The notes under the pieces are model-generated. The model made no database searches, had not been told where the DNA came from, and saw nothing but the letters and a program-made list of their open reading frames with translations. Shown here one piece after another: positions 736 through 64,000 of a DNA stretch of 64,000 bases. The first letter of the stretch is position 1. Each line of letters begins with the position of its first letter. Where the stretch lies: the NCBI RefSeq assembly GCF_014205215.1, contig NZ_JACHNC010000001.1:6940501-7004500 (forward strand), in the 5' to 3' direction. Source of the DNA: Actinoplanes lobatus (GTDB lineage Bacteria; Actinomycetota; Actinomycetes; Mycobacteriales; Micromonosporaceae). The position numbers and the translations under genes are program-made.

Positions 736-797
736 GACGTCCGATCCCTTTGGCAAGACTCTGCCCAGCGCCTTTGAAAATCAGCGGGAAGGGAACC

Positions 798-23698: not shown

Positions 23699-23699
23699 C

Positions 23700-28764: not shown

Positions 28765-28955
28765 GCGAGGACGAGTACGACGTCGTCGTCAACGACGAGG
28801 AGCAGTACTCCATCTGGGCCGCGGGCCGCGCGGTCCCGGCCGGGTGGCAGACCGTCGGCGTACGGGGCAGCCGCGAGGAGTGCCTGGAGCACATCGAGGG
28901 GGTCTGGACCGACATGCGGCCCAAGAGCCTGCGCCTCGCCATGGGCGAGCACTGA
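28761..28955 (+). CDS. MbtH-like protein
   Basis: Predicted 64 residues; ATG 28761 overlaps the NRPS stop (ATGA) and follows GGAAAGGAA. MbtH proteins bind NRPS adenylation domains and are often needed for their solubility and activity. The family signature is clear: an N-terminal Asn-x-Glu-x-Gln-Tyr-Ser-x-Trp stretch, PAGWQTVG in the middle, and the C-terminal CLEHIEGVWTDMRPKSLR. The size matches the family. Its position inside the operon suggests that it serves some or all of the eight adenylation domains encoded around it. Confidence 0.97.
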   Translation: MSEDEYDVVVNDEEQYSIWAAGRAVPAGWQTVGVRGSREECLEHIEGVWTDMRPKSLRLAMGEH

Positions 28956-28966
28956 GGAGGATCCCC

Positions 28967-30190: not shown

Positions 30191-30206
30191 ACCAGGAGGA
30201 CCGTAC

Positions 30207-31010
30207 GTGGACCCCATCGCACCGCGACCGAGGACGGGGCGGGCCGGCGGCTGGATCACCGGCCCGTCGCCCCGGCGATCTCCGGCCCTCCGCCTGTTCT
30301 GCCTGCCGTACGTGGGCGGCGGGGCGCAGGTCTACGAGCCGTGGCGCCCCGCCTTCGGTGCGGACGTCGAGGTCTGCGCCGTCGAGCTGCCCGGCCGCCA
30401 GACCCGCATGCGCGAAAGCCCGTACACGCGCCTGGACGCGCTCGTCGGCGCACTCGCGTCCGCGATCGTGGACGAGCTCGACGTGCCGTACGCGCTCTTC
30501 GGCCACAGCATGGGATCGCTGGTCGCGTTCGAGCTGGCGCACGAGCTGCGCCGCCGCGGCGCCGGCGAGCCGTGCGTCCTGTTCGTCTCGGCCGGCCCGG
30601 CGCCGCGGCTCCCGCGGCTGATGCCGCCACTGCACGCCGCATCCGAGGAACGGGTGGTCGCCCGGCTCGCCGAACTGGGCGGTCTGCCCCAGGAGATCCT
30701 CGACGAGCCGGAGCTTCTGCGCTACTTCCTGCCGGCGATCCGCGCCGACTTCGAGGTGATCGAGACGTACGGGTACCGGGCCCGGCAACCGCTCGCCTGC
30801 CCGGTGGTGGCCTTCACCGGCAGCGACGACGAGGATCTGCCACCCGCCGGCCTGACGCCGTGGGGCGAGGAGACCACCGGCCGGTTCGACCAGCACGTCC
30901 TGCCCGGTGGCCACTTCTTCCTGCGCGGGTCGCAAGACGAGCTGCTGACGCTGATGCGCGGCGCCCTCGCCCCGTACACCCGCTCGTGGAGGAGATTCGC
31001 CGATGCCTGA
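30207..31010 (+). CDS. Type II (editing) thioesterase
   Basis: Predicted 267 residues, starting at GTG 30207 behind AGGAGGA. An alpha/beta hydrolase with LFCLPYVGGGAQVY near residue 32, the nucleophile elbow GHSMGS (serine about 101) and a catalytic histidine in GGHFFLRG (about 236). Type II thioesterases remove wrong or stalled acyl groups from carrier domains of NRPS and PKS enzymes. The size and single domain separate it from the TE fused to the NRPS. The P450 gene overlaps its end by 8 bp. Confidence 0.93.
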   Translation: MDPIAPRPRTGRAGGWITGPSPRRSPALRLFCLPYVGGGAQVYEPWRPAFGADVEVCAVELPGRQTRMRESPYTRLDALVGALASAIVDELDVPYALFGHSMGSLVAFELAHELRRRGAGEPCVLFVSAGPAPRLPRLMPPLHAASEERVVARLAELGGLPQEILDEPELLRYFLPAIRADFEVIETYGYRARQPLACPVVAFTGSDDEDLPPAGLTPWGEETTGRFDQHVLPGGHFFLRGSQDELLTLMRGALAPYTRSWRRFADA

Positions 31011-32163
31011 GAAAGCGACCGGCCTGGGACCCCTCCCCGCGTTTCTGGCGACCGACGGCACCGGCGTCGTCCCGATCGTCACGCCGATGGGCGACAAGAT
31101 GTGGCTCGTCCGCGACCACGCCCTGGGCCGTCTCGTGCTCACCGACCAGCGGTTCAGCCGGGCCGAGGCGACCAGGCCGCAGGCGCCCCGCTTCAACGAC
31201 GCCCAGCCCGCCGCCGACGCCATGATGAGCATGGACGGCGCCGGGCACGCCCGGCTGCGGCGGGTGGTGAGCGGTGCCTTCAGCACCCGCCGGGTGGCCG
31301 CGATGGCGCCCCGCGTCGAACGCCTCACCGACGAGTACCTCGACGGGCTCGCCGCGGCCGGACCGGGCGCCGACCTCATCACGGGCCTCGCCACACCCCT
31401 GCCGCTGGCCGTCCTCTGCGCGGTGGTCGGCATTCCGCCGGAGGACAGCGACGTCTTCCGCGACCGGGTCGAGGTGCTGTTCGACATCTCGGCCAGCACG
31501 CCGCAGGAGAAGTCCCGCCGCCGCATCGAGCTCGTCGACTACATGGGTGACCTGATCGAGCAGAAGCGGCGGCGCACCGACGACGACCTGCTGACCGCCC
31601 TGATCGAAGCGCACGACCGGGGCCATCTGTCGTTGGGGGAGCTGCTGACACTCGGCCTCACCCTGCTGATGGCCGGGTACGAGACCACGGTCGGCCAGAT
31701 CGGCCTCTCGGTGCTCGCGCTGCTGTCGGACCCGGCCGCCCTCGCGGAACTGCGCGGCGATCCCGTGCTCGTGGAACCAGCCGTGGAGGAACTGCTGCGC
31801 CTCACGCCGGCCACGCCGCTCAGCTTTCCCCGGGTGGCCGTGGCTCCGGTCCAGCTCGGCACGGTCACCGTCCAGGCCGGCGAAGCCGTGGTCGTCTCGC
31901 TGCTGCACGGCAACCGGGACGAGGAGATCTGGCCGCGGCCGGAGCATCTGAACACGTACGGCCGCGACGCCGTCCACCTGACCTTCGGGCACGGGGTGCA
32001 CCGCTGCCTCGGCGCCCCGCTGGCCCGCCTGCAGCTGCGGATCGTCCTGGACCGCCTGCTGCGCCGTTTCCCCCAGCTACGCCTCGCCACCGGGCCCGAC
32101 GCCGTGGTCTGGAAGTCGGGGCTGTCCATTCGCGGCCTGGTCCGGCTGCGCGTCGACTGGTAG
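31003..32163 (+). CDS. Cytochrome P450 monooxygenase
   Basis: Predicted 386 residues, starting at ATG 31003 behind GGAGGAG inside the thioesterase gene. Bacterial class I P450 features are present: I-helix LLMAGYETT (about residues 222-230) with the conserved acid and threonine, ExxR as EELLR (262-266), and the haem loop [12 protein letters not shown] with the cysteine ligand at about 335. No ferredoxin gene adjoins it, so electron transfer partners are probably housekeeping. It is likely to hydroxylate or otherwise oxidise the product, or a carrier-bound amino acid. The site is not predictable here. Confidence 0.95.
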
Positions 32164-32195
32164 CCGAGCCGGTTGCCGAGTCTAGGAGGAGCACC

Positions 32196-45321
<13,126 letters not shown>

Positions 45322-45338
<17 letters not shown>

Positions 45339-46399: not shown

Positions 46400-47542
46400 A
46401 TGCCGATTACACCGCGGGCCGAAATTGTCGCGCTGCCGGGATATGCGGCACGCCGATCCGAGTCGCTGCCGGCGAAGCTCGCCAACAATGAGCTTGCCGA
46501 GGCGGCGCTGCCGCCGCCGGTCGCCGCCGCGATCGCGGCCGCCGTCGCCGAGTCGCACCGGTACCCCGACATGGCCGCGACCGACCTGCTCGACAGGCTC
46601 GCCGAGAGGCACGCGCTGCCGGTCGAGCGGCTCGCGGTCGGCTGCGGCTCGGTGGCGCTGTGCCAGCAGGTGATCCAGGCGCTGTGCCGGCCGGGGGACG
46701 AGGTGATGTTCGCCTGGCGCTCGTTCGAGGCGTACCCGGTCTTCGCCCGGATGATGAACGCCACCGGTGTGCCGGTCGCCCTCGACGACGGCCACGCCCA
46801 CGACCTCGGCGCCATGCTGGCCGCGATCACGCCCCGCACCAGGATCGTCTTCGTGTGCAACCCGAACAATCCGACGGGCACCGTGGTCTCCGGCGAGGCG
46901 CTGCGGAGCTTCGTCGCCCGCGTGCCGCCGGACGTCCTGGTCGTCATCGACGAGGCGTACCGGGAGTTCGTCACCGACCCCGGGGTGCTCGACGGGCTGG
47001 AGGCGGTACGCGGTGCGGAGAACGTCGCGGTGCTGCGTACCTTCTCGAAGGCGTACGGCCTCGCGGCGCTGCGGGTCGGCTATCTGGCCGGCCCGGCGAC
47101 GGTCGCGTCGGCCGTCCGCAAGGTCGGTGTCCCGTTCGGCGTGAACGGGATCGCCCAGGCCGCGGCGGTCGCCGCCCTCGCCGTCGAGGGCGAGGTCACC
47201 GAGCGGTGCCGGCGGATCGCCGCCGAGCGGGACCGGGTCCGCGGCGAGCTGCGGGCGCAGGGCTATCCGGTTCCGGCGACCCAGGCGAACTTCGTCTGGC
47301 TCCCGCTCGGCGAACGCACCGGGGACTTCGTCGCGCACGCGGCGGCGCACGGCGTGGACGTCCGCGGCTTCGCCGGTGACGGGGTCCGGGTCACCATCGG
47401 CGGCCCGGCCGAGAACGCGGCCTTCCTCCGGGCGTCCGGATCATTCCTGTACGTCGGCCGCGAACTTGCGCAGCGCGGCGCGGTTGGGCATGCCGGTCTT
47501 GGCCAGCAGGTTGCTGACGTGCCGCTCGACGGTGCGCGGTGA
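46400..47542 (+). CDS. PLP-dependent aminotransferase, HisC-like (fold type I, class I/II)
   Basis: Predicted 380 residues, starting at ATG 46400 with GGAGGG at 46387-46392. Seen: NPNNPTG (about residues 154-160), DEAY (about 184-187) and the Schiff-base lysine in TFSKAYG (about 217). This is the arrangement of histidinol-phosphate/aromatic aminotransferases. Because a HisC-like enzyme is encoded inside the cluster, it more likely makes or consumes an unusual amino acid or keto acid than histidine. The family normally ends soon after AENAAFLRA. Here about 30 further residues run over the 3' end of the LAL gene on the other strand (102-bp overlap), which may be a non-conserved tail. Confidence 0.88.
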   Translation: MPITPRAEIVALPGYAARRSESLPAKLANNELAEAALPPPVAAAIAAAVAESHRYPDMAATDLLDRLAERHALPVERLAVGCGSVALCQQVIQALCRPGDEVMFAWRSFEAYPVFARMMNATGVPVALDDGHAHDLGAMLAAITPRTRIVFVCNPNNPTGTVVSGEALRSFVARVPPDVLVVIDEAYREFVTDPGVLDGLEAVRGAENVAVLRTFSKAYGLAALRVGYLAGPATVASAVRKVGVPFGVNGIAQAAAVAALAVEGEVTERCRRIAAERDRVRGELRAQGYPVPATQANFVWLPLGERTGDFVAHAAAHGVDVRGFAGDGVRVTIGGPAENAAFLRASGSFLYVGRELAQRGAVGHAGLGQQVADVPLDGAR

Positions 47543-50332
47543 CACGTGCAGGAGGTCGGCGATCTCCCGGTTGCCCATCCGCCCGACGAGCAGTTGCAGC
47601 ACCTCGAACTCGCGTCCGGTGACGCCCGCCGACCGCAGTTCCTCCGGGACACGGTCGACCCCGGCACGGCGCTGCGGGACCCGGGCGCCCGACCTGCGCA
47701 GCAGGGCCCGGCAGGCGTCGGCCACGGGACGGACGTCGCGGTCGTGGAAGTACCGCTCGGCGGTGCGCAGCCAGCCGGGTGGGTCGCCCCAGCCGTCCAC
47801 GATCGCCGCCTCGGCCACCAGGCGCAGGCCGAGGTTGCGGCTCATCTCGAAGGGCTCGGCCGCCTCCAGAGCCGCGGTCACCGCGTCCGCCGCCTCCGGG
47901 CCCCGCCCGGCACGGCCGAGCAGGACCGCGTACGCGAACTGGGTGAACTGCCGGTCCCATCGCAGCGCGCTCGCCGGGTCGACGGCCATCGCGTCGTACT
48001 CCGGCCAGTCGGCTTCGCCGGCCAGCACGCGCATCAGCAGATGCAGGCCGTGCCGTCCGGAGAGGTAGTAGATGCTGGGCCCGCCCTCCACCCCGGACAT
48101 CGCGCGGGCCAGCTCGTCGTGTGCGAGCCGCCGGTCCTCGCCGAGCAGTGCGCAGAACGCCCCGGCGAGCCCGTGCGCGCGGGGCGCGTGCAGGGCGAGG
48201 TTGCCGCCCCATCGTTCGAACTCGGCGAGCGCCGTGGTCATCGCGGTGCGGTCGCCCTCGTGCCCGGCGCACACCGCCCGCAGCAGCAGCAGGTAACGGG
48301 TGGTCTCGAGAAGCTTCAACCGGACCGTGGAGTCCAGCGCCTGATCGATGAGGGCGCGCGCCGCCGGGTAGTCGCCGCGCAGGATGGTGTGCAGCGCGAT
48401 GCTGGACTCGGCCTGGTAGTGAGCGGTCACCGCGCCCACCCGGCCGGCCTTGTCGCGGGACTCCTCGAGGCGGGTCGTGTCCGCGTGCCGCAGGGCGTCG
48501 TCGTTGCCGAGCCGGATCAGCGCGTGGATCTCCCAGATCGGCAGGCCGTGCCGGGCGGCGAGGCCGTTGGCCCGCTCCAGGCAGCGGGTCGCCTCGTCCG
48601 GGTTGCGGTGCCGCACGATGGCGCCGAGCAGCTGCCACGCCTGGCAGGCCACGACCGGCAGGGGTACGGCCTCGGCGACGGTGGCCGCGTGGCGGGCCAG
48701 CCGTTCGGCGCGATCGAACTGGTCGGCGCCGGTGATGTCGAGGACGAGGTGCGCCTCCACCACGTCGATCGGCGCGATGTCCTCCGGGGCCGGAACCGGG
48801 CCGAGCAGGCCGCGCGCCACCGAGGCCTGATGCACCGCCTCGTCGAGCCGGCCGGCCACGGCGGCCGCCCAGGCGACCTGGGTGTGCAGGCGGGCGCGTC
48901 GCCGGGGGGTGAGCCCGCGTACCTGATCGAGGGTGTTGATCGAGGCGAGCGCCCGTTCCACCTCACCGGCCTCGGCCAGGGCCAGCAGCAGCTGTTCGAG
49001 GGCGTCGGCGCGGTCCGACGCGTCGGTCAGCAGTTCCGTGGCGCGGTCCAGCAGGGACACCGCCGAGGCGGCGGCGCCACTGGCGAGCGCCCGCCGGCCG
49101 GCCTCGGTGAACAGCCGGCCCGCGGCGGGGCGGTCGCCCGCGTCCAGCCGCAGCCGGGCCGCCACCTCGCACCACTCGCCCGGGTGGTCGGGAAAGAGGG
49201 TGTCGACGGCTTCGGCCACCGTGGCGGCGAGCCGAACCTGTTCCGCGCGATCCATGCGAGCCAGGATCGCGTCCCGGTTGAGCTGGTGACGGAACGTGTA
49301 CCAGTCGGCGGTGTACTCGTCCGGAGCCACCAGGTGACCGGCCAGGTCGTCCTGGAGCAGGCTCAGCATGACCCGGTCGGACAGCCCGGTGGCGAGCTGC
49401 ACGACCGCGAGCGGAAAGCGCGGCCCGAAGGTGGCCGCCGCCGAGAGCACCTCGAGCGTCTGCGGCCCGAGGATGGCCAGGCGCCGGGCCAGCGGGCGGG
49501 TGAGCTCCGGGGTGACCGCGGCCGCGTGCTCGCCGAGCCGCCACGAGCCGCCGTCCGGGACGATCAGCTCCTCGTCGACCATGACCTTGAGCATCTCCTC
49601 GGCCATGAACGGGTTTCCCGCACTGCCCGCCCACAGCAGCTCCACCGCGCTCTCGGGCAACTGCGCCCCGTCGACGTCGAGGCAGGCGCCGGCCATCCGG
49701 CGCAGCGTCGGACGGCGCAGCGGGCCCAGCTCGATCAGGGTGCACCGGCCTCGCTGGGTGGCGGTCCTGGCCAGCGCGTACGCGACGCTGTCGCCCTCGC
49801 GGATGCCGCCCAGCAGCAGGGTCGGCTGCATGTCGACGTTGTCCACGAGGTACTCGAGCACCGCCAGCGTCTCCGCGTCGGCGTCGTGCAGGTCGTCCAG
49901 GCTCAGCAGGCACCCGCGGTCGTGGCCGGCGAGCCCGGTGAGCCGGAGGGTGGCCTCGGCCAGCACGACCAGGGACTCGCGGCCTCCGCCGGGCGGCTCA
50001 CCCCAGCCGGGAATCATCCGGCCGAGGATCGGCCCGTACGGTCCGAGTTCAGCCGGCTCGACCCGTTCCATCCTCAGCAGATAGAGGGCCGCCTCGGTGA
50101 GCGGCCGCAGCGGGGTGGCCGGGCCGACCGAGCTGGCCCGGCCCCGCATCAGGCGCATGCCGGCGGCGTACGCGATCTCGGTCATCGTGGACAGCAGCCG
50201 GGACTTCCCGATGCCGGCCTCTCCGGTGACGAAGACCGCGCCGCCGCGGCCTCCCCGTGCCTCGGCCAAGGCCCTCTCTACGACGCTCACCTCCCGGTCC
50301 CGGCCGATCAACATCGTCGAGTGTGGACGCAT
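47441..50332 (-). CDS. LAL-family (large ATP-binding LuxR) transcriptional regulator
   Basis: Predicted 963 residues, typical for this family. The N-terminal ATPase has Walker A GEAGIGKS (37-44) and a Walker B-like LLSLDDLHDAD (near 145). A long helical TPR-like middle follows. A C-terminal LuxR helix-turn-helix (about 905-958) contains VTGREFEVLQLL, NREIADLLHVSPRTVERHV and a Leu/Ala-rich end. LAL proteins usually activate polyketide and peptide clusters. ATG 50332 has no strong ribosome site; ATG at about 50314 is an alternative. It lies downstream of the lanthipeptide genes on the same strand across a 75-bp structured gap, so it may be partly cotranscribed with them. Its 3' end overlaps the aminotransferase gene. 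Confidence 0.93.
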   Translation of the reverse strand: MRPHSTMLIGRDREVSVVERALAEARGGRGGAVFVTGEAGIGKSRLLSTMTEIAYAAGMRLMRGRASSVGPATPLRPLTEAALYLLRMERVEPAELGPYGPILGRMIPGWGEPPGGGRESLVVLAEATLRLTGLAGHDRGCLLSLDDLHDADAETLAVLEYLVDNVDMQPTLLLGGIREGDSVAYALARTATQRGRCTLIELGPLRRPTLRRMAGACLDVDGAQLPESAVELLWAGSAGNPFMAEEMLKVMVDEELIVPDGGSWRLGEHAAAVTPELTRPLARRLAILGPQTLEVLSAAATFGPRFPLAVVQLATGLSDRVMLSLLQDDLAGHLVAPDEYTADWYTFRHQLNRDAILARMDRAEQVRLAATVAEAVDTLFPDHPGEWCEVAARLRLDAGDRPAAGRLFTEAGRRALASGAAASAVSLLDRATELLTDASDRADALEQLLLALAEAGEVERALASINTLDQVRGLTPRRRARLHTQVAWAAAVAGRLDEAVHQASVARGLLGPVPAPEDIAPIDVVEAHLVLDITGADQFDRAERLARHAATVAEAVPLPVVACQAWQLLGAIVRHRNPDEATRCLERANGLAARHGLPIWEIHALIRLGNDDALRHADTTRLEESRDKAGRVGAVTAHYQAESSIALHTILRGDYPAARALIDQALDSTVRLKLLETTRYLLLLRAVCAGHEGDRTAMTTALAEFERWGGNLALHAPRAHGLAGAFCALLGEDRRLAHDELARAMSGVEGGPSIYYLSGRHGLHLLMRVLAGEADWPEYDAMAVDPASALRWDRQFTQFAYAVLLGRAGRGPEAADAVTAALEAAEPFEMSRNLGLRLVAEAAIVDGWGDPPGWLRTAERYFHDRDVRPVADACRALLRRSGARVPQRRAGVDRVPEELRSAGVTGREFEVLQLLVGRMGNREIADLLHVSPRTVERHVSNLLAKTGMPNRAALRKFAADVQE

Positions 50333-50345
50333 GCCGGTGAACCTA

Positions 50346-50397
50346 CTCGGGGTGTCCGCCGCCTAACAGCTTGACAAGCATTGCCGACACTCCCGAG
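50346..50397. promoter_or_regulatory. Nested inverted repeats between precursor-peptide and LAL genes
   Basis: Outer arms are CTCGGGGTGTC (50346-50356) and GACACTCCCGAG (50386-50397), complementary except for one bulged base. Inside the loop is a perfect GCTTG-A-CAAGC (50369-50379). There is no T-tract. It could act as an operator for the LAL gene, or as a transcript hairpin that dampens read-through from the lanthipeptide genes. Confidence 0.4.
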
Positions 50398-50407
50398 CCG
50401 GGCGCCT

Positions 50408-50650
50408 CTACATGGGGTTCGGCGGGCAGCAGCTGGTCTCCAGGATGACCAGGTTCTCCGCCCCGGCGCCCTGCACCACGGCGGCGATCCCGGCCGTCAC
50501 CACGGCGACTGGCAGGGCCATCTGGGCCAGAGCGGCCGCCCGCACGCCGAAGTTGACCGACGGCAGCAGGCGCATGCGGCCGACGGCGTGCTCGGTGGTT
50601 TGTTCGTACTCGCCGTACTCGTCGTTCTCGTCGTTTTTGATCTCAGACAT
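50408..50650 (-). CDS. Putative class II lanthipeptide precursor
   Basis: Predicted 80 residues. ATG 50650 follows the LanM stop by 3 bp, with GAGGGGA in the end of the LanM gene as ribosome site, so the two are translationally coupled. The N-terminus is strongly acidic (MSEIKNDENDEYGEYE), as expected of a leader. Residues 35-59 are Ala/Val-rich and hydrophobic. The C-terminus reads ENLVILETSCCPPNPM. Only Thr72, Ser73, Cys74 and Cys75 cluster there; other Ser/Thr are at 18, 19, 31 and 52. A Gly-Ala-Gly-Ala stretch at 61-64 could be the leader cleavage site, giving a core of about 16 residues. Adjacency to LanM is the main support. The motif resembles no lantibiotic that I recall, so the mature structure is unknown. 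Confidence 0.7.
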   Translation of the reverse strand: MSEIKNDENDEYGEYEQTTEHAVGRMRLLPSVNFGVRAAALAQMALPVAVVTAGIAAVVQGAGAENLVILETSCCPPNPM

Positions 50651-50653
50651 GGA

Positions 50654-53600
50654 TCAGGTCCCCTCTGTCGGATGGTTGACTGTCGATGCCAGGTCGTGGG
50701 CGGGTTGGAGCAGCAGGACCGAGGGCACGTCGCCGGGGGCGGCGAGCCGCAGCAGCCCGTATCCGATACCGGCGAGCCCCGTCAGCAGGCCGGGCGTGAG
50801 GACGTTGCCGGGTACCCCGCACACCGGCCCGCCGCGGCGCAGGGCCTCCAGCACCCCGCCGGTCCGGCGGCGCAGCGCCGCGGCGGCCGGGGAGGGCCGG
50901 TCACCGGACGCCGCGATCGTCGCGAGCACTTCGAGCACGCCCAGCTCGCCGTGGCAGAGCGACAGATCGCGGTGGGCCGGACCGTCGGCCAGAGCGGTCG
51001 CGTCCGCTGCCGACATCTCGTGCGGGACGCAGACGCCGGCGAGAGCCATCCCGGGATCGCCGTTGCACCAGCCGCCGCCCACCGGCGCGCCGTCGGCGGT
51101 CGCACGGGCCACCACCTGCGAGGCCAGCCGGCGCCCGGCCGCGCGGTGGTCCGGCCGCGGACCGCATCGCACGAGTGCCCAGGCGATGCCGCTCAGCCCG
51201 TCGGCGAACGAGAGCGGCAGGGTGCCGTCGTCGTGGTCGGCGATCCGGGCGAGCCGGTCGGCGCAGTCGATCTCCGCATCGGAGGCGGATCCGAGACCCA
51301 GGCAGCGGCGCACCGCGGACAGGGCGGCCAGGCAGCCGGCGAGGCCGTCGGCCCAGCCGGGCCCGGACAGCGCCCGCGACGACCGGCCGGCCAGCGCGGC
51401 CAGCCGTGCGGCACCGTCGCGCAGCGCCGGGTCGTCCAGCAGCAGACCGAGCCGGGCCAGGCCGTACGCGATCCCGCCGAGGCCGTTCAGGCCACCCCAG
51501 CCGACCGTCTCGACCAACTCGGGGTGGCCCGTGAACAGGTCGACCAGCGCGGGCGTGCCGGCCACCGCGCCGCGGGCCTGACCGGCGTAGCGGCCGACGC
51601 CGGTCACGGCGGCCAACTGGGCCAGGAACAGCGCCACCCCGAGGTATCCCGTGCCGAGGCTCGCGCCCATCGGCAGCACCAGCCACTGGCCGTCGACGTG
51701 TTCGACACCCAGCCAGTTGACCCGCTCCTCGCCGGACATCCGGGTGACGACGGCGTCGGCCATGGTACGGGCGGCGGTGAGCAGGGCGTCCGGATGCACG
51801 ACGGGGTTCGTCGGACCGGCCGGGGCCGGGGCGCCGGGCCGGGGCGCCGGGTGGGCGGGCGCGCCGTGCCGGGTGGCCAGCGTCGCCGAGATGATCCATT
51901 CCTGCTGCCGGCGGTCCACGTGGCCGAGCCCGGCGAGGGTGTCGAGGGCGGCGGCGACCCCGGCCCGGGGCAGCGGCACGGGCAAGCACGTGCCGTCCGG
52001 GGTCCGCAGCTCACCGGAGCCGGCCGAGGCGAGGAACATCGGCACGTCGCCGTTCCACATCGCCGTGATCTCGTGCCCGACGAGCTGGGACAGCAGCGGG
52101 TTGGCGGAGCGGTTGGCGTGGAGCACCGAGAACGCCTCGTCCCGGTCCAGCGCGTCGCGCAGCACGTCCGGGTGCGTCGTCTCGTCCAGGATCGTCGCGT
52201 ACATCCAGCTGGGCCGGGTGATCACCCGGATCTCCAGATCGGCGCAGGCGGCGACGGCCGCGGCGAACTCGGCACGGTGCGCGGCGGCGAAGTCGTAGGC
52301 CTGCCGGAAACCGGCCACGATGGACTGCTCGTGGTCGCCGGGGTCGAGATCGGCGCCGGCCAGGCGGGGCCGGTTGGCCGAGCCGGTCATGGCGTACGGG
52401 CGGCGGACGAGCCGCATCCGGTCGGTGCCGGCGTCGAGCCAGTCCACCACGCTCGCCGGGCAGTGGCCGTCGCGGTCGCCGCCCAGCCCGGACAGGTCCG
52501 CGGCGCCCTGGTCGCCGATCACCAGCAGCGGCAGCAGGGCGGTGCGGTAGACCGACGAGGCGAGGGCACCGGCCGCCGGGTCGGCGTCACCGGCAGGTGT
52601 CAGCTCGGCGTTGAACAGCGTCTCGGTGTCGATCAGCACAGGGGTCCCGGCGTCGGCGACGACGTTCTCGTAGTGCATGTCGGTGGTGCGCAGCACGTGC
52701 AGCAGGGCGAGCAGCGCGCCCTGCCGGCGGTAGAACCGGTCGGCTTCGGCGGGGTCCGGCAGGTCGCGGGCCGCCACGTACGCGGTCCAGCCGTAACCGG
52801 GCCGGGCGACGGTGCGTGCGATGCCCGGAGACAGCTCGGGGTGCCCGGCCGACAGCAGGTCGATGAACCGGCCCATGACGACCTGCGTGGTCACGTCCCG
52901 CGGCTTGTAGACGACGCGGCTGCCGTCGGCGAAGTCGACGAAGCTGACCGTGCGGCCGTTGTGGTGCCGGTCGCCGAGGCCGGCCACGATGGCGACGACC
53001 GGTCCCGGGTCGGCGGTGCCGAGGAGCGCGCCGACCACCTCGTCGCGGTCGGCGGCCAGCCGGGCGAGCAGTTCCCGGGTCGCCGTCACGGCCGCGTCGG
53101 TGGCCTGGGCCAGCAGCCGCGCCAGTACGGGATACCGGGTGAGCAGCGCGGCCAGGCCGCCGGGGGACGCCGTGCGGCGCGCGAAGTCGAGGAACCGGGC
53201 CCGCTCGTCGTCCCCGGTGAGCCGGTCGCGGGCGCCCCAGCGGTGCAGTTCGGCGACGAGCGCGCGGGCGGCCAGGTCGACGAGGCCCCGGCGCAGCGCC
53301 GTACCGAGGTGGAGAGTGACCCGCGGCAGGTCGAGCCAGTCGCACGGTCCGGCGCCGGCGGTGATCCGCTCGACGGCGTCGTCGGCGAACGGCCGCAGCA
53401 CCCGGCCGAACGCGTCGCGCCAGTCGCCGCCCACCTCGGCCACCGAGGCCGGCACCGCGGCCGCCACCGCACGCTCGGCGGTCGCCACCCACGCCGGCCG
53501 GACGGTCCGGGCGGCGAGGCAGGCGGCCGGCTCGGCCCGCAGCGCCGGCATCGCGTCCGGGCTCAGCCCGAGGTCGGCGAGGCGCTGGGTGAAGGGCTCG

Positions 53601-53761
53601 CCGGGGTCCGCGCACGACGGGCCGGCGGCGGGGCCGGGATGGATCCGCTCGTGCAGGGCCAGTGCGGGCGCCCACCACCCGGCACCGAGGAGCGTCCCGC
53701 CGGTGGGGGTGGAGGGGACGGCCATGGCGAGAACGATGCCCGCCCGCTCGTACGCAGTCAT
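50654..53761 (-). CDS. LanM-type class II lanthipeptide synthetase
   Basis: Predicted 1035 residues, the usual LanM size. These enzymes phosphorylate and eliminate Ser/Thr in a precursor and then form thioether rings with Cys. The N-terminal two thirds match the dehydratase domain: GLGDRHHNG (about 265-273), VVYKPRD (about 285-291), DMHYENVV and PVLIDTETLF (about 350-370). The C-terminal third is LanC-like with repeated GL-G-xx-G helices and zinc ligands in GGWCNGDPG (Cys near 902) and LCHGELG (Cys-His near 935). ATG 53761 is the longest start but has no clear ribosome site and is buried in a hairpin; ATG 53725 (MAVPSTPTGG) is a realistic alternative. No LanT exporter or leader protease lies beside it. 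It is flanked by a LAL and a SARP regulator of the PKS/NRPS cluster. Confidence 0.92.
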   Translation of the reverse strand: MTAYERAGIVLAMAVPSTPTGGTLLGAGWWAPALALHERIHPGPAAGPSCADPGEPFTQRLADLGLSPDAMPALRAEPAACLAARTVRPAWVATAERAVAAAVPASVAEVGGDWRDAFGRVLRPFADDAVERITAGAGPCDWLDLPRVTLHLGTALRRGLVDLAARALVAELHRWGARDRLTGDDERARFLDFARRTASPGGLAALLTRYPVLARLLAQATDAAVTATRELLARLAADRDEVVGALLGTADPGPVVAIVAGLGDRHHNGRTVSFVDFADGSRVVYKPRDVTTQVVMGRFIDLLSAGHPELSPGIARTVARPGYGWTAYVAARDLPDPAEADRFYRRQGALLALLHVLRTTDMHYENVVADAGTPVLIDTETLFNAELTPAGDADPAAGALASSVYRTALLPLLVIGDQGAADLSGLGGDRDGHCPASVVDWLDAGTDRMRLVRRPYAMTGSANRPRLAGADLDPGDHEQSIVAGFRQAYDFAAAHRAEFAAAVAACADLEIRVITRPSWMYATILDETTHPDVLRDALDRDEAFSVLHANRSANPLLSQLVGHEITAMWNGDVPMFLASAGSGELRTPDGTCLPVPLPRAGVAAALDTLAGLGHVDRRQQEWIISATLATRHGAPAHPAPRPGAPAPAGPTNPVVHPDALLTAARTMADAVVTRMSGEERVNWLGVEHVDGQWLVLPMGASLGTGYLGVALFLAQLAAVTGVGRYAGQARGAVAGTPALVDLFTGHPELVETVGWGGLNGLGGIAYGLARLGLLLDDPALRDGAARLAALAGRSSRALSGPGWADGLAGCLAALSAVRRCLGLGSASDAEIDCADRLARIADHDDGTLPLSFADGLSGIAWALVRCGPRPDHRAAGRRLASQVVARATADGAPVGGGWCNGDPGMALAGVCVPHEMSAADATALADGPAHRDLSLCHGELGVLEVLATIAASGDRPSPAAAALRRRTGGVLEALRRGGPVCGVPGNVLTPGLLTGLAGIGYGLLRLAAPGDVPSVLLLQPAHDLASTVNHPTEGT

Positions 53762-53777
53762 GGGTGTTTCGCACCCA
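53761..53777. promoter_or_regulatory. Perfect 6-bp inverted repeat over the LanM start
   Basis: TGGGTG and CACCCA are separated by TTTCG. In the LanM transcript it would pair the A of the ATG at 53761 and the bases before it, hiding that start codon. If transcription begins downstream it could instead be an operator shared with the SARP gene. Confidence 0.45.
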
Positions 53778-53990: not shown

Positions 53991-56093
53991 ATGGAGTACC
54001 GGATTCTCGGCCCCCTCGAAGCCCGGCGCGGGGGTACCGCAATAGACATAAGGGGCAGACGCCAGCTGACCGTACTGGCGATCCTGCTCGTGGACGCGAA
54101 CCGGGTCGTACCCACGGATCACCTGGTCGAGGCGGTGTGGGGCCGTAGGCCGCCGACCACCAGCCGCAGCCAGATCCACATCTGCGTCTCGTCCCTGCGC
54201 CGTCAGCTGTTCGCCGGCGACGATCCGATCGACACGCGCGCCCCCGGTTATCGGTTGCGGGTCGCCGAGGAGGAGCTGGACCTGCACGTCTTCCAGGCTC
54301 GCGTGGCGGCCGCCCGGACGGCGGTCCGGGACGCGGACCCGCGGCGTGCCGTGGCCGAGCTGCGGGCGGCGCTCTCGCTGTGGCACGGTCGCGCGCTGGC
54401 CGGCATCGGCGGCGACGCGGTACGCGCACTGGCCGCCCGCTACGACGAGCAGCGACTCGCCGTACACGAGGAATGCCTGGAGCTGGAGCTGGAGCACGGC
54501 CCGGCGAACGCCCACGACCTCGCCGGTGAACTACTGGCCCTGGTCGCCGCCCATCCGCGGCGGGAACGCCTGCTGGCCCTGCTGATGACCGCGTTGTACC
54601 GGGCCGGCCGGCAGGCGGAGGCCCTGGACGAATACCACAAGGCCCGGCTGCGGTTCGTCGGTGAACTGGGCATCGAGCCCGGCTCCGGACTGGACGCGCT
54701 GTACCAGCGGATCCTCACCCACGATCCGGCGCTGGCGGGCCCGGCCGCCCCGCCGCCGGAGCCGGTGCGTGCGGCGCGGACGGCCGACCGGGCCCCGCGC
54801 CGGCTCCCGGCCGACGTCGCGGACTTCACCGGACGCCGGGACAGCCTCACCGGCCTGTTGACGGCGCTCGAACGCACCGGCGGGACCGCGGTGCCCACGG
54901 CGGTGGTCAGCGGCCGCGGCGGCGTCGGCAAGACCACGCTGGCCGTGCATGCCGCCCACCTTCTCGCGCCGCGGTTCCCGGACGGGCAGTTGTTCGCACG
55001 GCTCTGCGGGCCGGACGGGGCGGAGAACCCGCACGATGTGCTCGGGCGCTTCCTGCGCGCGTACGGCCTGGGGGAGCGGGACATCCCGGACGGCGCCGAG
55101 GAACGGGCGGAGACCTACCGCGATCTGATGGCCGACCGCCGGGCCCTGGTGATCCTCGACGACGCGCTCACCGAGAGCCAGGTGTTCCCGCTGTTGCCGG
55201 GCACGTCGCGGTGCCGGGTGATCATCACGTCGCGCCGGCCGCTGCCCGGCCTGCCCGCCGCCGTACGGCTGCGGCTGGCGCCGTTCACCGAGCGCAGCGC
55301 GCTGGAGCTGGGCGGCCGGATCGCCGGGCACGCCCGGATCGACGCCGACCGCGCGGCCGCCGTGGCGCTGAACGAGACCTGCGGCTACCTGCCCCTCGCG
55401 CTGCGGTTGGCGGCCGCCCGGCTGGCCGCGCACCCGCACTGGACGGTCGCCGACCTCGTCGCCCGGCTCGGCGCCGGTTCCGCCTGGCTGGCGGAGATGC
55501 AGGCCCAGACCGGTGTGGAGCAGGCGTACGCCGGCCTGTCCGACGACGCGGGCCGCCTCTTCCGGCTGCTGCCGCTGGTCGAGGCGGCCGACTTCCCGGC
55601 ATGGGTCGGCGCGCCGCTGCTGGACGTGGACGTCTGCCGCGCGGAGGCGCTGTTCGACGAACTCGCCGACGCGGACCTGCTGGTCGCGCGGCCCGCTCCC
55701 GGCGGTACGCGGTACTGGGTGCCCGGCTGGATCCTCGGCTACGCGCGCCGGCTGCAGGCGCCGGAGCACGACCAGGCCCGGCGCAAGTCGCACGAACGCC
55801 TGCTGGGCGCGCTGCTCTACCTGTCCGAGATGGCGCATCGCCGGCGCGGCGGCCACGACCTGCGGCTGGCCGGGAACGGGGCGAGCCGCTGGGAGCTGCC
55901 GGGCCCCCAGGCCGACCTGATCACCGCGGACCCGGCCGGCTGGTACGGGCGGGAACGTCCCTGGGTGCTGCGGGCGGTACGGCAGGCGACCGCGGCCGGA
56001 TTCGCCGAGCACGCATGGGGACTGGCGATGTGCACGGTGACCTTCGCCGGTCTGCCGGCACCCGCCGGCCGCTATCCGGGCGACGAGTCGTGA
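53991..56093 (+). CDS. AfsR/SARP-type transcriptional regulator with NB-ARC domain, lacking the TPR tail
   Basis: Predicted 700 residues, starting at ATG 53991 with GGAG upstream. Residues 1-95 are the OmpR-like winged helix (MEYRILGPLE, RRQLTVLAILL, APGYRLRV). About 95-245 form the bacterial transcriptional activation domain (HPRRERLLALLMTALYRAGRQ). An NB-ARC ATPase follows, with Walker A GRGGVGKTT (about 307-315), Walker B LVILDDAL (about 387-394) and GYLPLALRLAAARL (about 464-477). AfsR proteins of nearly 1000 residues continue into TPR repeats; here the protein stops just as that region would begin. SARPs bind 11-bp-spaced heptamer repeats near promoters, and such repeats occur upstream of both 798 and 58299, so it is a good candidate activator of both. 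Its 3' end overlaps the amidohydrolase gene by 22 bp. Confidence 0.9.
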   Translation: MEYRILGPLEARRGGTAIDIRGRRQLTVLAILLVDANRVVPTDHLVEAVWGRRPPTTSRSQIHICVSSLRRQLFAGDDPIDTRAPGYRLRVAEEELDLHVFQARVAAARTAVRDADPRRAVAELRAALSLWHGRALAGIGGDAVRALAARYDEQRLAVHEECLELELEHGPANAHDLAGELLALVAAHPRRERLLALLMTALYRAGRQAEALDEYHKARLRFVGELGIEPGSGLDALYQRILTHDPALAGPAAPPPEPVRAARTADRAPRRLPADVADFTGRRDSLTGLLTALERTGGTAVPTAVVSGRGGVGKTTLAVHAAHLLAPRFPDGQLFARLCGPDGAENPHDVLGRFLRAYGLGERDIPDGAEERAETYRDLMADRRALVILDDALTESQVFPLLPGTSRCRVIITSRRPLPGLPAAVRLRLAPFTERSALELGGRIAGHARIDADRAAAVALNETCGYLPLALRLAAARLAAHPHWTVADLVARLGAGSAWLAEMQAQTGVEQAYAGLSDDAGRLFRLLPLVEAADFPAWVGAPLLDVDVCRAEALFDELADADLLVARPAPGGTRYWVPGWILGYARRLQAPEHDQARRKSHERLLGALLYLSEMAHRRRGGHDLRLAGNGASRWELPGPQADLITADPAGWYGRERPWVLRAVRQATAAGFAEHAWGLAMCTVTFAGLPAPAGRYPGDES

Positions 56094-58086: not shown

Positions 58087-58189
58087 CTGTCGTGAGATCC
58101 ACCATGGTGCGACCGTAGGGCCCGCGACCCGAGGCCGACACCGCCGGAAGAATGGGTGCGGCCTATACCTCGGGCGGGGTCGGAAAACG

Positions 58190-58290
58190 CTATCGCCGAA
58201 CTATTCCTATTCGCGACTGTCGTTTCTCCATCGTTTGTCCTTCACCGCTTTCCCGGACTCTTGACCCTGGTCGATCGCGATTCCTAATGT
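58190..58290 (+). promoter_or_regulatory. Promoter/operator of the second PKS
   Basis: TTGACC (58261-58266), an 18-bp spacer and TAATGT (58285-58290) match the spacing at the NRPS operon promoter. Upstream heptamers are CTATCGC (58190-58196), CTATTCC (58201-58207, exactly 11 bp on) and CTATTCG (58207-58213); a TTTCTCCATCG at 58223-58233 mirrors TTTTCTATCGA at 670-680. The -10 ends 8 bp before the ATG, so the transcript is predicted to be leaderless or nearly so. The remaining spacer from 58087 holds a 10-bp palindrome CACCATGGTG at 58100-58109 and nothing else recognised. Confidence 0.6.
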
Positions 58291-58298
58291 CCGCTGGG

Positions 58299-61200
58299 AT
58301 GGCTACTGAAGAGGAACTCCGGAAGTATCTGAGGATCGCCGTCGGCGACGCTCAGGAGTACCGTCGGCGGCTGCGCGAGGCCGAGGAACGAGACCGGCAG
58401 CCGATCGCGATCGTCGGCATGGCGTGCCGCTATCCCGGAGGAGTCACCTCGCCGGAGGACCTGTGGCGGCTCGTCGCGGACGGGGTGGACGCGGTCGGCC
58501 CGTTCCCCGGCGACCGGGGCTGGGACCTGACCGCACTCTACGACCCGGATCCGGACGCCGCCGGCACCTCGTACGCCCGGGCCGGCGGGTTCCTGCACGA
58601 CGCCGCCGACTTCGACCCCGAGCCGTTCGGCATCTCGCCGCGCGAGGCCCACGCCATCGACCCTCAGCAACGGCTGCTGCTGGAGATCGCCTGGGAGACC
58701 TTCGAACGGGCCGGCATCCCCCCGGAGAGCCTCCGCGGCAGCCGCACCGGCGTGTTCGTCGGCGTGATGTACGACGACTACGCATCCCGGCTGACCCCCG
58801 CCCCCGCCGCGTACGAGGGTTACCTCAGCGCCGGCAGCGCGGGCAGCGTGGCGTCCGGCCGGCTCGCGTACACCTTCGACCTCAAGGGTCCCGCCGTCAC
58901 CGTGGACACGGCGTGCTCCTCGTCGCTGGTCGCGCTGCACCTGGCCGTGCAGGCACTGCGCCGCGGAGAGTGCCGCCGGGCGCTGGCCGGTGGCGTGACC
59001 GTGATGGCCACACCGACGTCGTTCATCGAGTTCAGCCGGCAGCGCGGCCTGTCCGCCGACGGCCGCTGCCGGGCCTTCGCGGAGTCGGCCGACGGCACCG
59101 GCTGGGCCGAGGGCGCCGGGCTGCTGCTCGTGGAGCGGCTGTCGGACGCGGTACGCGAGGGCCACGAGGTGCTGGCGGTGATCCGTGGCTCGGCGGTCAA
59201 CCACGACGGTGCCAGCAACGGCCTGACCGCACCCAGCGGCACCGCCCAGGCGCAGCTGATCGAGCGGGCCCTGGCCGACGCCGGCGTGCCGGCCGCGGAG
59301 GTCGACGTGGTGGAGGCGCACGGCACCGGCACCCGTCTCGGCGACCCGGTCGAGGCGCGGGCGCTGATCGCCACGTACGGGCGGGCACACACGGCCGACC
59401 GCCCGGTGCGGCTGGGGACGCTGAAGTCCAACATCGGGCACACCCAGGCGGCCGCCGGTGTCGGTGGAGTCATCAAGATGGTCGAGGCGCTGCGGCGCGG
59501 TGTGCTGCCCGCGACGTTGCACGCCGACCGGCCGACGTCGCACGTGGACTGGTCGGCCGGCACCGTGACCCTGCTGACGGAGCCGGTCCCGTGGCCCGCG
59601 GCCGGCCACCCGCGGCGGGCCGGGGTCTCGTCGTTCGGCATCAGCGGCACCAACGCGCACCTGATCCTGGAAGCCGTGCCGCCCGCCGCGCCGGCCGCAC
59701 CGGATCCGCCTGAACCGGGCGCCGGCGTCGTTCCGCTGCTGCTCTCGGCGGCCGGTGCCGATGCGCTCGGCGCCCAGGCGCAACGCCTCCTCGGCCCCCT
59801 GGCATCCGCCGGCCTGGCCCCGCTCGGGCTCTCCCTCGCGACCGCCCGCGGCTTTCTGCGGCACCGGGCGGTGGTGCTGGCCGCGGATCCCGGCGAAGCC
59901 GCGGCGGGCCTGCGCGCGCTCACCGCCGGCGAGTCCACGCCACAGGTGTTCCGCGGTGTGGCCGACGAGGGCCGTACGGCGTTCCTCTTCGCCGGGCAGG
60001 GCTCCCAGCGCCCGGGCATGGGGGAGGGGCTGTACCGGGCGTACCCGGCCTACGCGGCAGCCTTCGACGCGGTGTGCGCCGCCATCGACCCGCATCTGAC
60101 CCGGCCGTTGCGCGACGTGGTCTTCGCCGCCGAGGGCTCGGCCGAGGCGGCCCTGCTCAGGCGCACCGAGTGGGCGCAGCCGGCCCTCTTCGCCGCCGAG
60201 GTCGCCCTGTTCCGGCTGCTGGAGTCCTGGGGCGTACGGGCGGACGCGGTGCTCGGCCACTCCGCCGGCGCCCTGGCGGCCGCCCACGTGTCCGGCGCCC
60301 TGCCGCTGGCCGGAGCCGCCGAACTGGTGGCCGCCCGGGGCCGGGTCATGGGCCGGCTGCCGGCCGGCGGAGCGATGGTCGTGGTCAACGTCGCCGAGCC
60401 GCAAGCCGCGGCCCTCATCGCCGGCTACGAGGCCCATCTCTCGGTCGCCGCGGTGAACGGGCCGGAATCGACCGTCCTGTCCGGCGAACGCCTCGCGCTG
60501 GCCATCGTCGTGGCGGCCTTCCAGTCGGACGGCGGCAAGGCGACCTGGCTGCGCGTCAGCCACGCCTTCCACTCCCCGCTGATCGAGCCGGCGCTCGCCG
60601 GGCTGCGCGACGCGGCCACCCGCCTCGACCCGGCCGAACCCGGCATCACACTCGTCTCCGACCTGACCGGAAAGGCCGTCGAGCCCGGCGGCCTGACCGA
60701 CCCGGACCACTGGGCGCGGCACGCGCGCGGCACCACCCGATTCCTGGACGGCATGCGTCACCTCGCCGAACTGGGCTGCACCCGCTTCCTGGAGGTGGGC
60801 CCCGGCGGCGACCTGGCCGCGCCGGCCGCCGCCTGCGTGCCCGGCAGCACCGTCGTGGCGGCCCTGCGAGCCGACCGGCCGGAGCCCGCGACGTTGCTCG
60901 GCGCGCTCGCCCGGCTGCACGTCGTGGGCCAGCCGATCGACTGGGCGGGCGCCCTCGGCGCACGCGGCGCCCGGCGGATCCCGCTGCCGACGTACGCGTT
61001 CCGGCGCAGCCGATTCTGGCTGGACCCGCCCGCACCGGCCGGAGGCCACGACGCGGCCCGCGCCGCCGGTTGCACCCCGGCCGGCCACCCCCTGCTGAGC
61101 GCGGTGGCCGAGATCCCCGCAACGGGCGCCCTGCTGCTGACCGGCCGGCTGACGGCGGGCGACCACCCGTGGCTGGCCGGGCACCGGGTCGCCGGCACGG

Positions 61201-64000
61201 TGCTCCTGCCGGGCACCGCATGGCTGTCGATCGCCGGCCACGCGGCCCGGGCGGCCGGCTGCACCACGGTCGAGGAGCTGATCCTGGAGAACCCCCTGCC
61301 GGTGCCCGAGGACGCCGAGATACAGCTGCGGGTGTTCGTCGACGCGCCCGACGACTCCGGACGGCGGGCGGTCACCGTGCACGCCCGCCGGGAGGCGCAC
61401 GAGTGGGTCCGGCACGCCCACGGCATCCTCGGCGACGAACCGGCCGGACCGGTCGCCGACCTGACCGCATGGCCGCCGCCGGACGCGGAGGCCGTGCCCC
61501 TGACGCCGGACCACCTCTACGCTCAGCTCGCCGCGCGAGGACTCGACTACGGACCCGACTTCCGTGCCGTCCGGGCGATGTGGCGCCGCGGCCCGGACAC
61601 CTACGTCGAGGTGACGCGGCCGCACGACGGCCATCTCCTGCATCCGGCACTGCTGGACGCCGCACTGCACCCGCTCGTGCTGACCGGCGTGGCCGGCGCG
61701 GACGGCACACCGGTGCCCCACACCTGGTCCGGCGTCCACCTTCCGGACACCGCGGTCTCCGCACTGCGGGTACGCCTGGCCCCGGCCGGCACACGGGCGG
61801 TCTCGATCGACATGGCGGACACGGACGGCAAACCGGTGGCGTCGATCCGCTCACTCGCGCTGCGCCCGATGCCCGGCGCCCGCGACGGCCTGCTGGTTCC
61901 CTCATGGACGCCGCTCGCGATCCCGCCGGGGCCGGCCGACCGGTGGACGGAGGCGGACGGCCCCCCGCCGCAGGCGGACCGGATCCTTTACACCTGCGAC
62001 GTCCGAGGCGACGACGCCGCTGCGGTCCGGGCGGCGCTCCACCCCCTGCTGTCCCTGGCCCAGACCCTCACCTCCGACGACCGGTTCGCCGGCACCCGCC
62101 TGGCCGTACTCACCCGCGAAGCCGTCGCGGTCGATGGCGAGCAGCGGCCGGCCGGGCTCGCCCACCGGGCCGTCTGGGGCTTCGTGCGGGCCCTGCAGGC
62201 AGAGCATCCCGGCCGGTTCGTCCTCGCCGACGAGGACGGCGAGCCCGCCTCCCGGCGGGTGCTGGAGGCGGCCCTCGCGACCGGCGAGCCGCAGATCGCC
62301 CTGCGCGCCGGCGTGGCATACCGCCCGGTGCTCGTCCACGACGAACCGGCCACCGTACTCACCCCGCCGGCCGGGGAGCCGCACTGGCGCCTCGACTTCG
62401 TGGGCCGCAAGACCTTCGACGGCCTCGCCCTGGCGCCGTGGCCCGAGGCGGGCGCCGCGCTCGGGCCGGGCCAGATCCGGGTACGCATGCGGGCCGCCGG
62501 CGTGAACTTCCGGGACGTCCTGCTGACCCTCGGCGTGATCGCGCCGTCGGTGGACGCCGACGCGGCCGGCCCGGGCCAGGGCGGCGAGGGGGCCGGTGTC
62601 GTCATCGAGACCGGCCCCGGCGTGACCGCATGGCGAGCCGGCGACCGGGTGATGGGCCTGTTCGCCGGCGTCGGGCCGGTCTCGGTCACCGACCATCGGC
62701 TGGTGTGCCGCATCCCCGGCGGCTGGTCCTTCGAACAGGCCGCCGCCGTGCCGGTGGCCTACCTGACCGCGTACCACGGCCTCGTGGACATCGCCGGCCT
62801 CAGCGCCGGCGAGTCCGTCCTCGTGCACGCCGCGACCGGTGGCGTCGGCACCGCCGCGCTCGCGCTCGCCCGGCATCTGGGCGCCGACGTGTACGCGACG
62901 GCGAGCCCGGCCAAGTGGGACGTCCTGCGCGCGGCCGGGCTGCCGGACGACCACATCGCCTCGTCGCGCACACTGGACTTCGTCCGCTTCGAGGGCGTCG
63001 ACGTGGTGCTCAACTCGCTGGCCGGGGAGTTCATCGACGCCTCGCTGGGCCTGCTGCGCGGCGGAGGCCGGTTCCTGGAGATGGGCAAGACCGCGCGGCT
63101 CGACCCCGCGGCGGTCGCCGCGGCGCATCCGGGTGTCATCTACCGGGCCTACGACGTACGGGACCCCGGGCCGGACCGGATCCGGGACATGCTCGCCGGC
63201 CTTCTCGACCTCTTCGACCGGGGGATCCTCGCACCGCCGCCGATCGCCACCTGGGACATCCGGCGGGCACCGGGCGCCTTCCGTCACCTCGGCGAGGCAC
63301 GGCACATCGGCAAGGTCGTGCTCACCCTCACCGGCGACGAGGTCTGGGACACCACCCGCGCGGTCCTGATCGTCGGCGGCCACGGCCGGCTCGGCCGGCT
63401 GGCCGCCCGCCACCTGGCCACCGCGCACGGCGTCCAGCGGCTCGTGCTGATGGGCCGGCACCTGCCGGAGCCCGGCAGCGCGGCCGCACGCGACATCGCC
63501 GACCTCGCCGCCGGCGGTACCGACGTGCGCAGCGTGGCCTGCGACGTCGCCGACCCCGGCGCCCTGGCGGCGGCACTCGACGGGCTCGGCAGCGACGGCA
63601 TACGCCTCGGCGGCATCGTGCACGCGGCGGGCGTCCTCGACGACGGTGTGCTCGCCGCCCTGACCCCCGAACGGCTCGAACGCGTCCTGCGGCCCAAGGT
63701 GGACGCGGCCCTCAACCTGCACGCCGCCACCCGTGGCATGGACCTGCGCCGGTTCGTCGTGTTCTCCTCCCTCGCCGGCACGCTGGGCACCGCCGGGCAG
63801 GCCGGCTACGCCGCCGGCAACGCCTTCCTGGACGGCCTCATGGAGCTGCGGCGAGCGCAGGGACAGCCGGGCACCTCGATCGTCTGGGGCCTGTGGCGCG
63901 GCGACGGCGCCGACGGCGGCATGGGCGGCGCCCTGACCGGGGCCGACATCGCCCGCATGGCCCGGACCGGAGTGGTGGCGCTCTCCGACGAGCAGGGTCT
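58299..64000 (+). CDS. Modular type I PKS, first module KS-AT-DH-ER-KR (partial, runs off window)
   Basis: An open frame of 1900 codons starts at ATG 58299 and has no stop before the edge. The first ~33 residues form a charged helical docking segment ([20 protein letters not shown]), so it receives a chain from another PKS protein, plausibly the one ending at 45338. [11 protein letters not shown], Cys 206. AT: GHSAG, serine about 655, with HAFH indicating malonyl-Co[13 protein letters not shown] near 962 and D-x3-H near 1120. ER: starts near 1365, [10 protein letters not shown] near 1507. KR: GGHGRLG near 1693 (a His replaces the usual Thr), LDD B-type motif, then Ser and Tyr (GYAAGN). The ACP and any later modules lie outside. 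The module is fully reducing and would turn a dienoyl C6 chain into a C8 chain with saturated C2-C3. There is no Shine-Dalgarno sequence before the start. Confidence 0.94.

Follow-up and report, generated by a model that had tools for sequence, protein, structure and literature searches.

What does a lantibiotic-type synthetase, coupled to a short peptide, do inside a cluster of nonribosomal peptide synthetase (NRPS) and polyketide synthase (PKS) genes? The question is raised by a 64,000-nucleotide stretch of the Actinoplanes lobatus genome (contig NZ_JACHNC010000001.1, positions 6,940,501 to 7,004,500), hereafter the window, in which coordinates count from the first nucleotide. A preliminary description of this DNA had placed a LanM gene and an 80-residue peptide open reading frame (ORF) between a LAL (large ATP-binding LuxR-family) regulator and a SARP (Streptomyces antibiotic regulatory protein), and this arrangement was confirmed. 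The LanM-type synthetase (50654..53761, minus strand, 1035 aa) is followed by the precursor peptide (50408..50650, minus strand), which starts 3 nt past the LanM stop codon, and 75 nt past the peptide by the LAL gene (47441..50332, minus strand); the SARP-type regulator (53991..56093, plus strand, BTAD and NB-ARC domains) is divergent from LanM. Comparison with relatives revealed that LanM and the peptide open a conserved three-gene cassette in the order LanM-peptide-LAL. The reading that we favor, at about an even chance of being right, is that the modified, dehydrated peptide is a ligand of the LAL and switches on the adjacent cluster.

The breadth of the cassette was assessed on 80 LanM loci (L039-L118). 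Scanning genome contigs with a LanM alignment and two short patterns recovered 145 relatives of the window LanM, from which these top 80 were taken. Together with the window these provide 81 LanM sequences, of which 17 belong to one Lentzea-type group, so that raw counts are not independent; 30 subclades were set at 60% LanM identity. A LAL gene lies downstream of LanM on the same strand in 74 of the 80 loci. Sequence stops at LanM or within 0.7 kb of it in four loci (L044, L052, L093, and L110). Counting L082, whose LAL is convergent, a LAL is present in 75 of the 76 loci that have sequence beyond LanM; L109 is the sole locus with room yet without one, none being found in the 10 kb beyond its LanM. 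The window regulator has the features of a LAL, namely an N-terminal AAA ATPase (AAA_16), a C-terminal LuxR helix-turn-helix (GerE), and a length of about 950 aa.

The association is specific to one LanM lineage. In a class-wide survey of 246 genomes, LanM scored above the cut-off in 16; among the control-survey loci, a LAL stands beside the A. lobatus LanM itself and beside L122 (41% identical and within the clade on the tree). No LAL lies next to the enzyme in 16 more remote loci of 26-34% identity, over flanks of 1.5 kb (contig ends therein unchecked, three partial genes). These 16 LAL-free controls are 15 loci from the class-wide sample, one of them under the cut-off, plus L025, with the weak partial matches L137 and L141 excluded. 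The reverse search, made in 394 genomes, returned 13 LAL matches at E<=1e-40: the four with at least 41% identity, among them the window's own, are preceded by LanM and a family peptide, and the nine with at most 40% have no LanM match and no family peptide seen by eye. The A. lobatus genome has a single LanM match and no second LAL of the cassette type, the next match reaching 29% identity and 43.5 bits.

In a LanM tree of 82 rows, computed by a quick method without L086, L131, L052, L044, L112, twelve near-copies, and the window's own duplicate L124, the LAL-linked enzymes form one clade (support 100), to which L109 is sister (support 98). L109 looks canonical, with the FSHG motif of its cyclase, a C39-type peptidase/transporter match, and two precursor ORFs with a AWKDEDHREGLAAMAHPAGDI leader (by eye). 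Four genomes that already hold one cassette carry an additional clade LanM with a LAL (L222-L225, in G718, G727, G715, and G699, respectively), and the additional cassettes of G715, G718, and G727 encode a Cys-free peptide ending in IIDTGGTGGHSS plus one residue. The contig of L056 is labelled Candidatus Melainabacteria and is perhaps mis-binned, the cassette being otherwise seen here in actinobacteria only.

The peptide has no match in NCBIfam or Pfam. A single-sequence search found six homologues, among these proteins of Actinoplanes campanulatus and Paractinoplanes brasiliensis, and a profile search, in which the best 7993 candidates were scored, found 81 proteins, 76 with CC inside the last 20 residues and 66 with TTCC, the commonest form. 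Given homologues by both searches, a chance ORF was rejected. Among 300 genomes sampled from the family of A. lobatus, the peptide is present in 12, its own genome counted; LanM directly adjoins it in all of the other 11 (11/11), with a LAL after the peptide, so that the proposed precursor is indeed conserved beside LanM homologues in the genomes where it was first found. A SARP-like match of at least 38% identity occurs in the fetched stretch of these 11 loci, except that of G295 (L030).

Three elements recur in an 18-row alignment drawn from across the LAL-linked clade: a common (H)P-A-G-x-I-x-L-like leader motif, an R-x-x-AL-like element placed after it, and a hydroxy-rich tail. Every row has M1, G24, and L41, and R37 and T72 are nearly invariant. 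The window counterparts, all on the minus strand, are HAVG (50579..50590), corresponding to the HPAG motif in the leader of type 2 precursors, FGVRAAALA (50525..50551), and the C-terminal modification motif TSCCP (50423..50437), which in close relatives is mostly T-T/S-C-C-P. In five LAL-free precursor-like ORFs inspected by eye, the R-x-x-AL-like element was not seen. Tails include DTTVSVV in Lentzea, DTSVSAP and TTVSVP in Streptomyces, PWTTMTAPW in the Streptomyces griseus type, SPSVVSVFTGGWI in Amycolatopsis, and TTCCP in the window relatives, and can be generalized roughly as T-(T/S)-x-(S/T/C). Genes were called and peptides picked with our own script, based on GC by codon position and a motif, so the choice of peptides is biased toward that motif; a small ORF was picked in the LanM-LAL gap of 72 of the 80 loci, probably falsely in L067, and none in the remaining eight. 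The last 22 residues are Cys-free in 60 of the 79 counted peptide ORFs, a count that omits L067 and any L082 ORF without TYTTC. Four Amycolatopsis loci (L059, L071, L092, and L099) hold three tandem family peptides in the gap. That the hydrophobic stretch might span a membrane was considered and dropped, as the Amycolatopsis and S. griseus-type peptides have no such stretch (by eye).

Is the enzyme beside this peptide equipped to modify it? The window LanM scores 586.4 bits against TIGR03897 (cut-off, 304), contains a DUF4135 dehydratase domain (about 52028-53134, minus strand) and a LANC_like domain (about 50711-51670, minus strand), and has a 92% identical counterpart in Actinoplanes flavus. 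The CylM residues involved in dehydration are given in the relevant part of eLife 07607 as D252, H254, K274, D347, H349, N352, D364, R506, and T512, and the window LanM is identical at eight of the nine (D264, H266, K286, D361, H363, N366, D378, and R512). Ser518 stands in place of Thr512, a conservative change at a residue described there as critical in CylM; mapped in this way, all phosphorylation residues and three of the four elimination residues are kept. The catalytic Asp, His, and Asn and the metal Asp are present in 80 or 81 of the 81 LanM rows.

The cyclase half differs. Its zinc ligands C899 (codon 51065..51067, minus strand; CylM C875) and C936-H937 (50951-50956, minus strand; CylM C911/H912) are kept in the window, but the position of the LanC catalytic His (NisC His212), part of FSHG in LicM2, is Asp854 (codon 51200..51202, minus strand, by alignment to LicM2). 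Among 79 rows of relatives this position is R in 26, D in 25, H in 9, F in 6, and T in 5, one of the H rows being L109; it is His in 12 of the 13 LAL-free control LanMs in the residue table, from which the partial L133-L135 were left out. The control without it, L131, is absent from the tree. NisC H212N and H212F are described in the pertinent section of PMC7296275 as binding zinc with no cyclization detected. In the Streptomyces subclade with the DTSVSAP tail, the zinc ligands themselves are lost. We infer that the window LanM acts as a dehydratase with an idle or altered cyclase; the cyclase half is probably decaying, and ordinary formation of lanthionine rings is improbable. In L031, L032, and L057 (Phytohabitans type), each LanM match is broken in two, owing to a split gene or a sequencing error.

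This bears on a puzzle of the preliminary description, which had noted that the adjacent Thr-Ser-Cys-Cys of the tail could form only very small rings unless the distant Thr52 or Ser31 took part. The latter route has lost its footing, as neither residue is conserved in a 17-row peptide alignment in which G24, P30, V32, F34, R37, A39, L41, P47, T72, C74, C75, and P76 are invariant. The tiny-ring puzzle mostly dissolves if LanM is a dehydratase with an idle or altered cyclase: because the relatives are mostly without tail Cys and the cyclase His is replaced by Asp, TSCC resembles a dehydration motif in variant form, and it is doubtful that lanthionine rings form on it. Cys-tailed members are nested as a single group (22 rows at support 98, four of which have no Cys label in the tree), with L114 and L056, each with a single Cys, outside it. 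Since they are nested among mostly Cys-free relatives, the Cys-Cys tail looks like a later variant on a clade whose root is not firmly resolved. That nesting would also suit a narrower explanation, in which a lanthionine or vicinal-disulfide structure serves as a redox- or metal-responsive LAL signal in the Cys-Cys subclade only, and the zinc ligands are retained in every Cys-clade row that has those positions. The LanC His, however, is replaced by D, A, E, T, F, or V in this clade too, and we regard such a signal as very improbable.

The genes around the cassette are the next source of evidence. Neighbors were counted in up to 10 kb of flank per locus with a single query per gene kind (two for SARP). 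A match to NRPS condensation-adenylation, condensation, ketosynthase (KS), LanKC, or LanB sequences occurs in the flanks of 43 of the 80 loci, representing 20 of the 30 subclades, and the kinds of cluster are diverse. PKS-NRPS genes accompany the cassette in the window and, by KS match, in L040; LanB-NRPS genes with an OTC-like gene in L042, L054, L080, L086, and L087; and genes for FabH, an acyl carrier protein, condensation, and SbnA/SbnB in L049-L051 and L057. LanKC (class III) matches lie near the LAL-linked LanM in eight of the 80 loci (L075, L095, L097, L100, L103, L106, L107, and L114), and SARP-like matches in 14 of the 80 relatives. One and the same core, TTCC(P), is found beside PKS-NRPS, LanB-NRPS-OTC, and FabH-condensation-SbnA clusters.

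Could the peptide nevertheless contribute to the product, the modified TSCC tail or its residues being incorporated in the NRPS/PKS product or attached to it? Where examined, the cassette keeps company with its cluster. The methyltransferase of the window cluster (45322-46380) and the LanM-peptide pair are found in the identical three of 67 Actinoplanes genomes; and LanM is present in all ten Micromonospora genomes with a condensation-domain match of at least 54% identity and absent from Micromonospora G288, in which the match is 39%. For the additional LanMs of G715, G718, and G727, another condensation domain is located at a distance of 12-15 kb. The NRPS query matches 31 of the 80 loci and the stand-alone condensation query 21, and ORFs with only the LanB N-terminal domain are close by in 12 (5 of the 30 subclades). 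Against such a hybrid, one core accompanies assembly lines of different kinds, and there are cassettes with no assembly line close by; the window NRPS is equipped with its own thioesterases; and a C39 leader protease has no match in the window. The last result comes from a set of tblastn searches of the window, one query each for LanKC, LanB, C39-ABC, MacB-ABC, SbnA, FabH, and OTC, which gave no match at E<=1e-3. Because cassette and cluster were never found apart where tested, we keep the hybrid as an unlikely explanation that still deserves some weight. The lipolanthine-like form of it put forward earlier is weakened, because the same core joins several cluster kinds and the LanKC query was negative in the window, and a class III hybrid was rejected on the negative outcome of this set of single queries.

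Several observations on these neighbors stand apart. The LanB N-terminal-domain-only ORFs are exemplified by L111:3507-5837 (minus strand), on which PF04738 was confirmed, and an ORF at L030:2547-4883 (minus strand) was likened to them by a similar N-terminus alone. LanB-N-type proteins can act on peptides using aminoacyl-tRNA, and these ORFs are possibly peptide or tRNA-dependent amino-acyl ligases. L033 (G203) and L047 retain LanM, peptide, and LAL; L047, however, has a SARP match broken in two and no condensation or FabH match, perhaps as the remains of a decayed cluster. In L215 (G246), the relative of the window methyltransferase has an in-frame TAG inside the matched stretch.

The pair might instead make a separate small RiPP (ribosomally synthesized and post-translationally modified peptide), dehydrated or with tiny thioether rings, in which case the LAL would merely be its own activator and the region would be shared by chance. 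The precursor adjoins LanM and the zinc ligands are retained, as such a product would have it; a major facilitator superfamily (MFS) gene lies in the cluster, and a MacB-like ABC gene is beside the cassette in six Lentzea loci. But a C39 peptidase match was obtained in just two of the 80 loci (L060 and the LAL-free L109), the cassette is linked with clusters, and a conserved element sits where a variable core would be expected, so that this explanation appears distinctly unlikely. The idea that an independent RiPP had inserted here was rejected, because the pair is linked both to the LAL and to the cluster. The remark that no exporter or protease adjoins the pair is partly upheld: it agrees with the C39/LanT query, but the MFS gene (28844-30190) and an M20-family hydrolase (56072-57400) are in the cluster. 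Co-regulation with the PKS/NRPS genes was the earlier proposal that fared best; the linkage to LAL and cluster is observed, and the control itself is proposed.

We return to the reading that the peptide is an input to the LAL. It is favored because LanM, peptide, and LAL stay constant, with one core, while the product genes vary around them, a pattern unlike that of a building block of one product. LanM would phosphorylate and dehydrate hydroxy residues in the C-terminal T-(T/S)-x-(S/T/C) motif; the dehydrated peptide, trimmed or untrimmed, would be the ligand through which the LAL encoded beside it, a LuxR regulator of the ATPase type, is switched; and the LAL, in the window together with the divergent SARP, would activate the neighboring biosynthetic cluster. 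More tentatively, as a possibility that we place below an even chance, this may be a new control circuit, in which a lantibiotic synthetase was recruited together with its substrate, the cyclase was relinquished, and the cysteines were mostly lost; the dehydroamino-acid peptide would have become a ligand dedicated to an ATPase/LuxR protein, perhaps one that binds covalently as a Michael acceptor, and the circuit would have been duplicated and moved with unrelated antibiotic clusters across Actinobacteria.

A number of observations weigh against this signaling role. A RiPP product would be equally well served by an operon that holds enzyme, peptide, and activator, and in L082 the LAL is convergent to LanM and thus outside the LanM-peptide operon. 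The phosphorylation Lys is Arg in 20 of the 81 LanM rows, so dehydration is less sure there. The three zinc ligands are kept in 69 of 77, 68 of 78, and 71 of 78 rows, Cys-free members among them, and the window subclade has Cys-Cys in all 17 alignment rows. No biosynthetic match of the kinds queried was obtained in 37 of the 80 loci, the 17 Lentzea-type loci giving none for NRPS, KS, LanKC, or LanB in their flanks (0/17), and the MacB-like ABC gene that adjoins the cassette in the six Lentzea loci hints that the peptide might be exported.

The rest of the window holds the other genes of the cluster. NRPS/PKS genes with carbamoyltransferase, MFS, thioesterase, and P450 genes extend over 750..45338 (plus strand) and include an NRPS ORF with a terminal thioesterase domain (7028-23698, plus strand); an additional PKS gene (58152..63998, plus strand) is open at the window end. 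The surroundings comprise NRPS genes with condensation, adenylation, and carrier domains, a separate thioesterase, an aminotransferase, and a response regulator. Third-position GC is 0.94 in LanM and 0.93 in the peptide gene. A sigma-70/terminator scan of 47000-54200 gave 0 promoter-like sites and one terminator-like site on the plus strand against 0.6 expected.

LAL regulators govern many antibiotic clusters, and for most of them the signal to which they respond is not known. With a subfamily that comes with a peptide and modifying enzyme of its own, a candidate ligand is at hand that can be tested simply. If the peptide does act in this way, it would offer a route to activating silent NRPS/PKS clusters of actinomycetes and would reveal a non-antibiotic job for lantibiotic enzymes. 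Caution would also be due with loci named "class II lanthipeptide" or "hybrid" from gene content, as these may hold a switch, not a product. No description of a LanM-LAL link or of the cassette was found in the open-access literature, a scope outside which most subscription papers fall. Cys-free LanM precursors are already known: in clusters with both LanM and LanKC, the LanM-associated precursors are described as Cys-free and were left uncounted, and in each of the four lanthipeptide classes certain clusters carry genes for polyketide, fatty-acid, or nonribosomal peptide machinery (both from passages of PMC7268733). Those passages mention no LAL link, and the clusters they describe probably include S. 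griseus-type members of the LAL-linked clade.

Compared with known systems, the window combines familiar parts in a different arrangement. The lipolanthines likewise have lanthipeptide-type genes beside PKS genes but are of class III according to the same passages (PMC7268733), whereas the window has no LanKC match in the single search made. Like the class II enzymes CylM and LicM2, the window LanM matches TIGR03897, has DUF4135 and LANC_like domains, and keeps the phosphorylation/elimination residues (with Ser for Thr512) and the zinc ligands; unlike them, it has the LanC His replaced and a LAL as partner rather than a C39 transporter, the LanT/C39 peptidase-transporter of a canonical class II cluster being absent from the window by the one tblastn query. 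The peptides of its relatives differ from those of class II systems in being mostly Cys-free in the tail. Some family peptides retain the WK(N/D/Q)..HPAG leader pieces of the mersacidin/lichenicidin precursors (TIGR03898), the L060 peptide scoring 18.7 bits, under the 23.5 cut-off, and the window peptide being unmatched; the precursor ORFs of L109 show the full leader by eye. In contrast to these precursors, the family peptides add the R-x-x-AL element and have few or no Cys. Finally, the window LAL shares with MalT-like LAL regulators an AAA_16 N-terminus and a GerE C-terminus, and differs from them in belonging to a subfamily tied to LanM.

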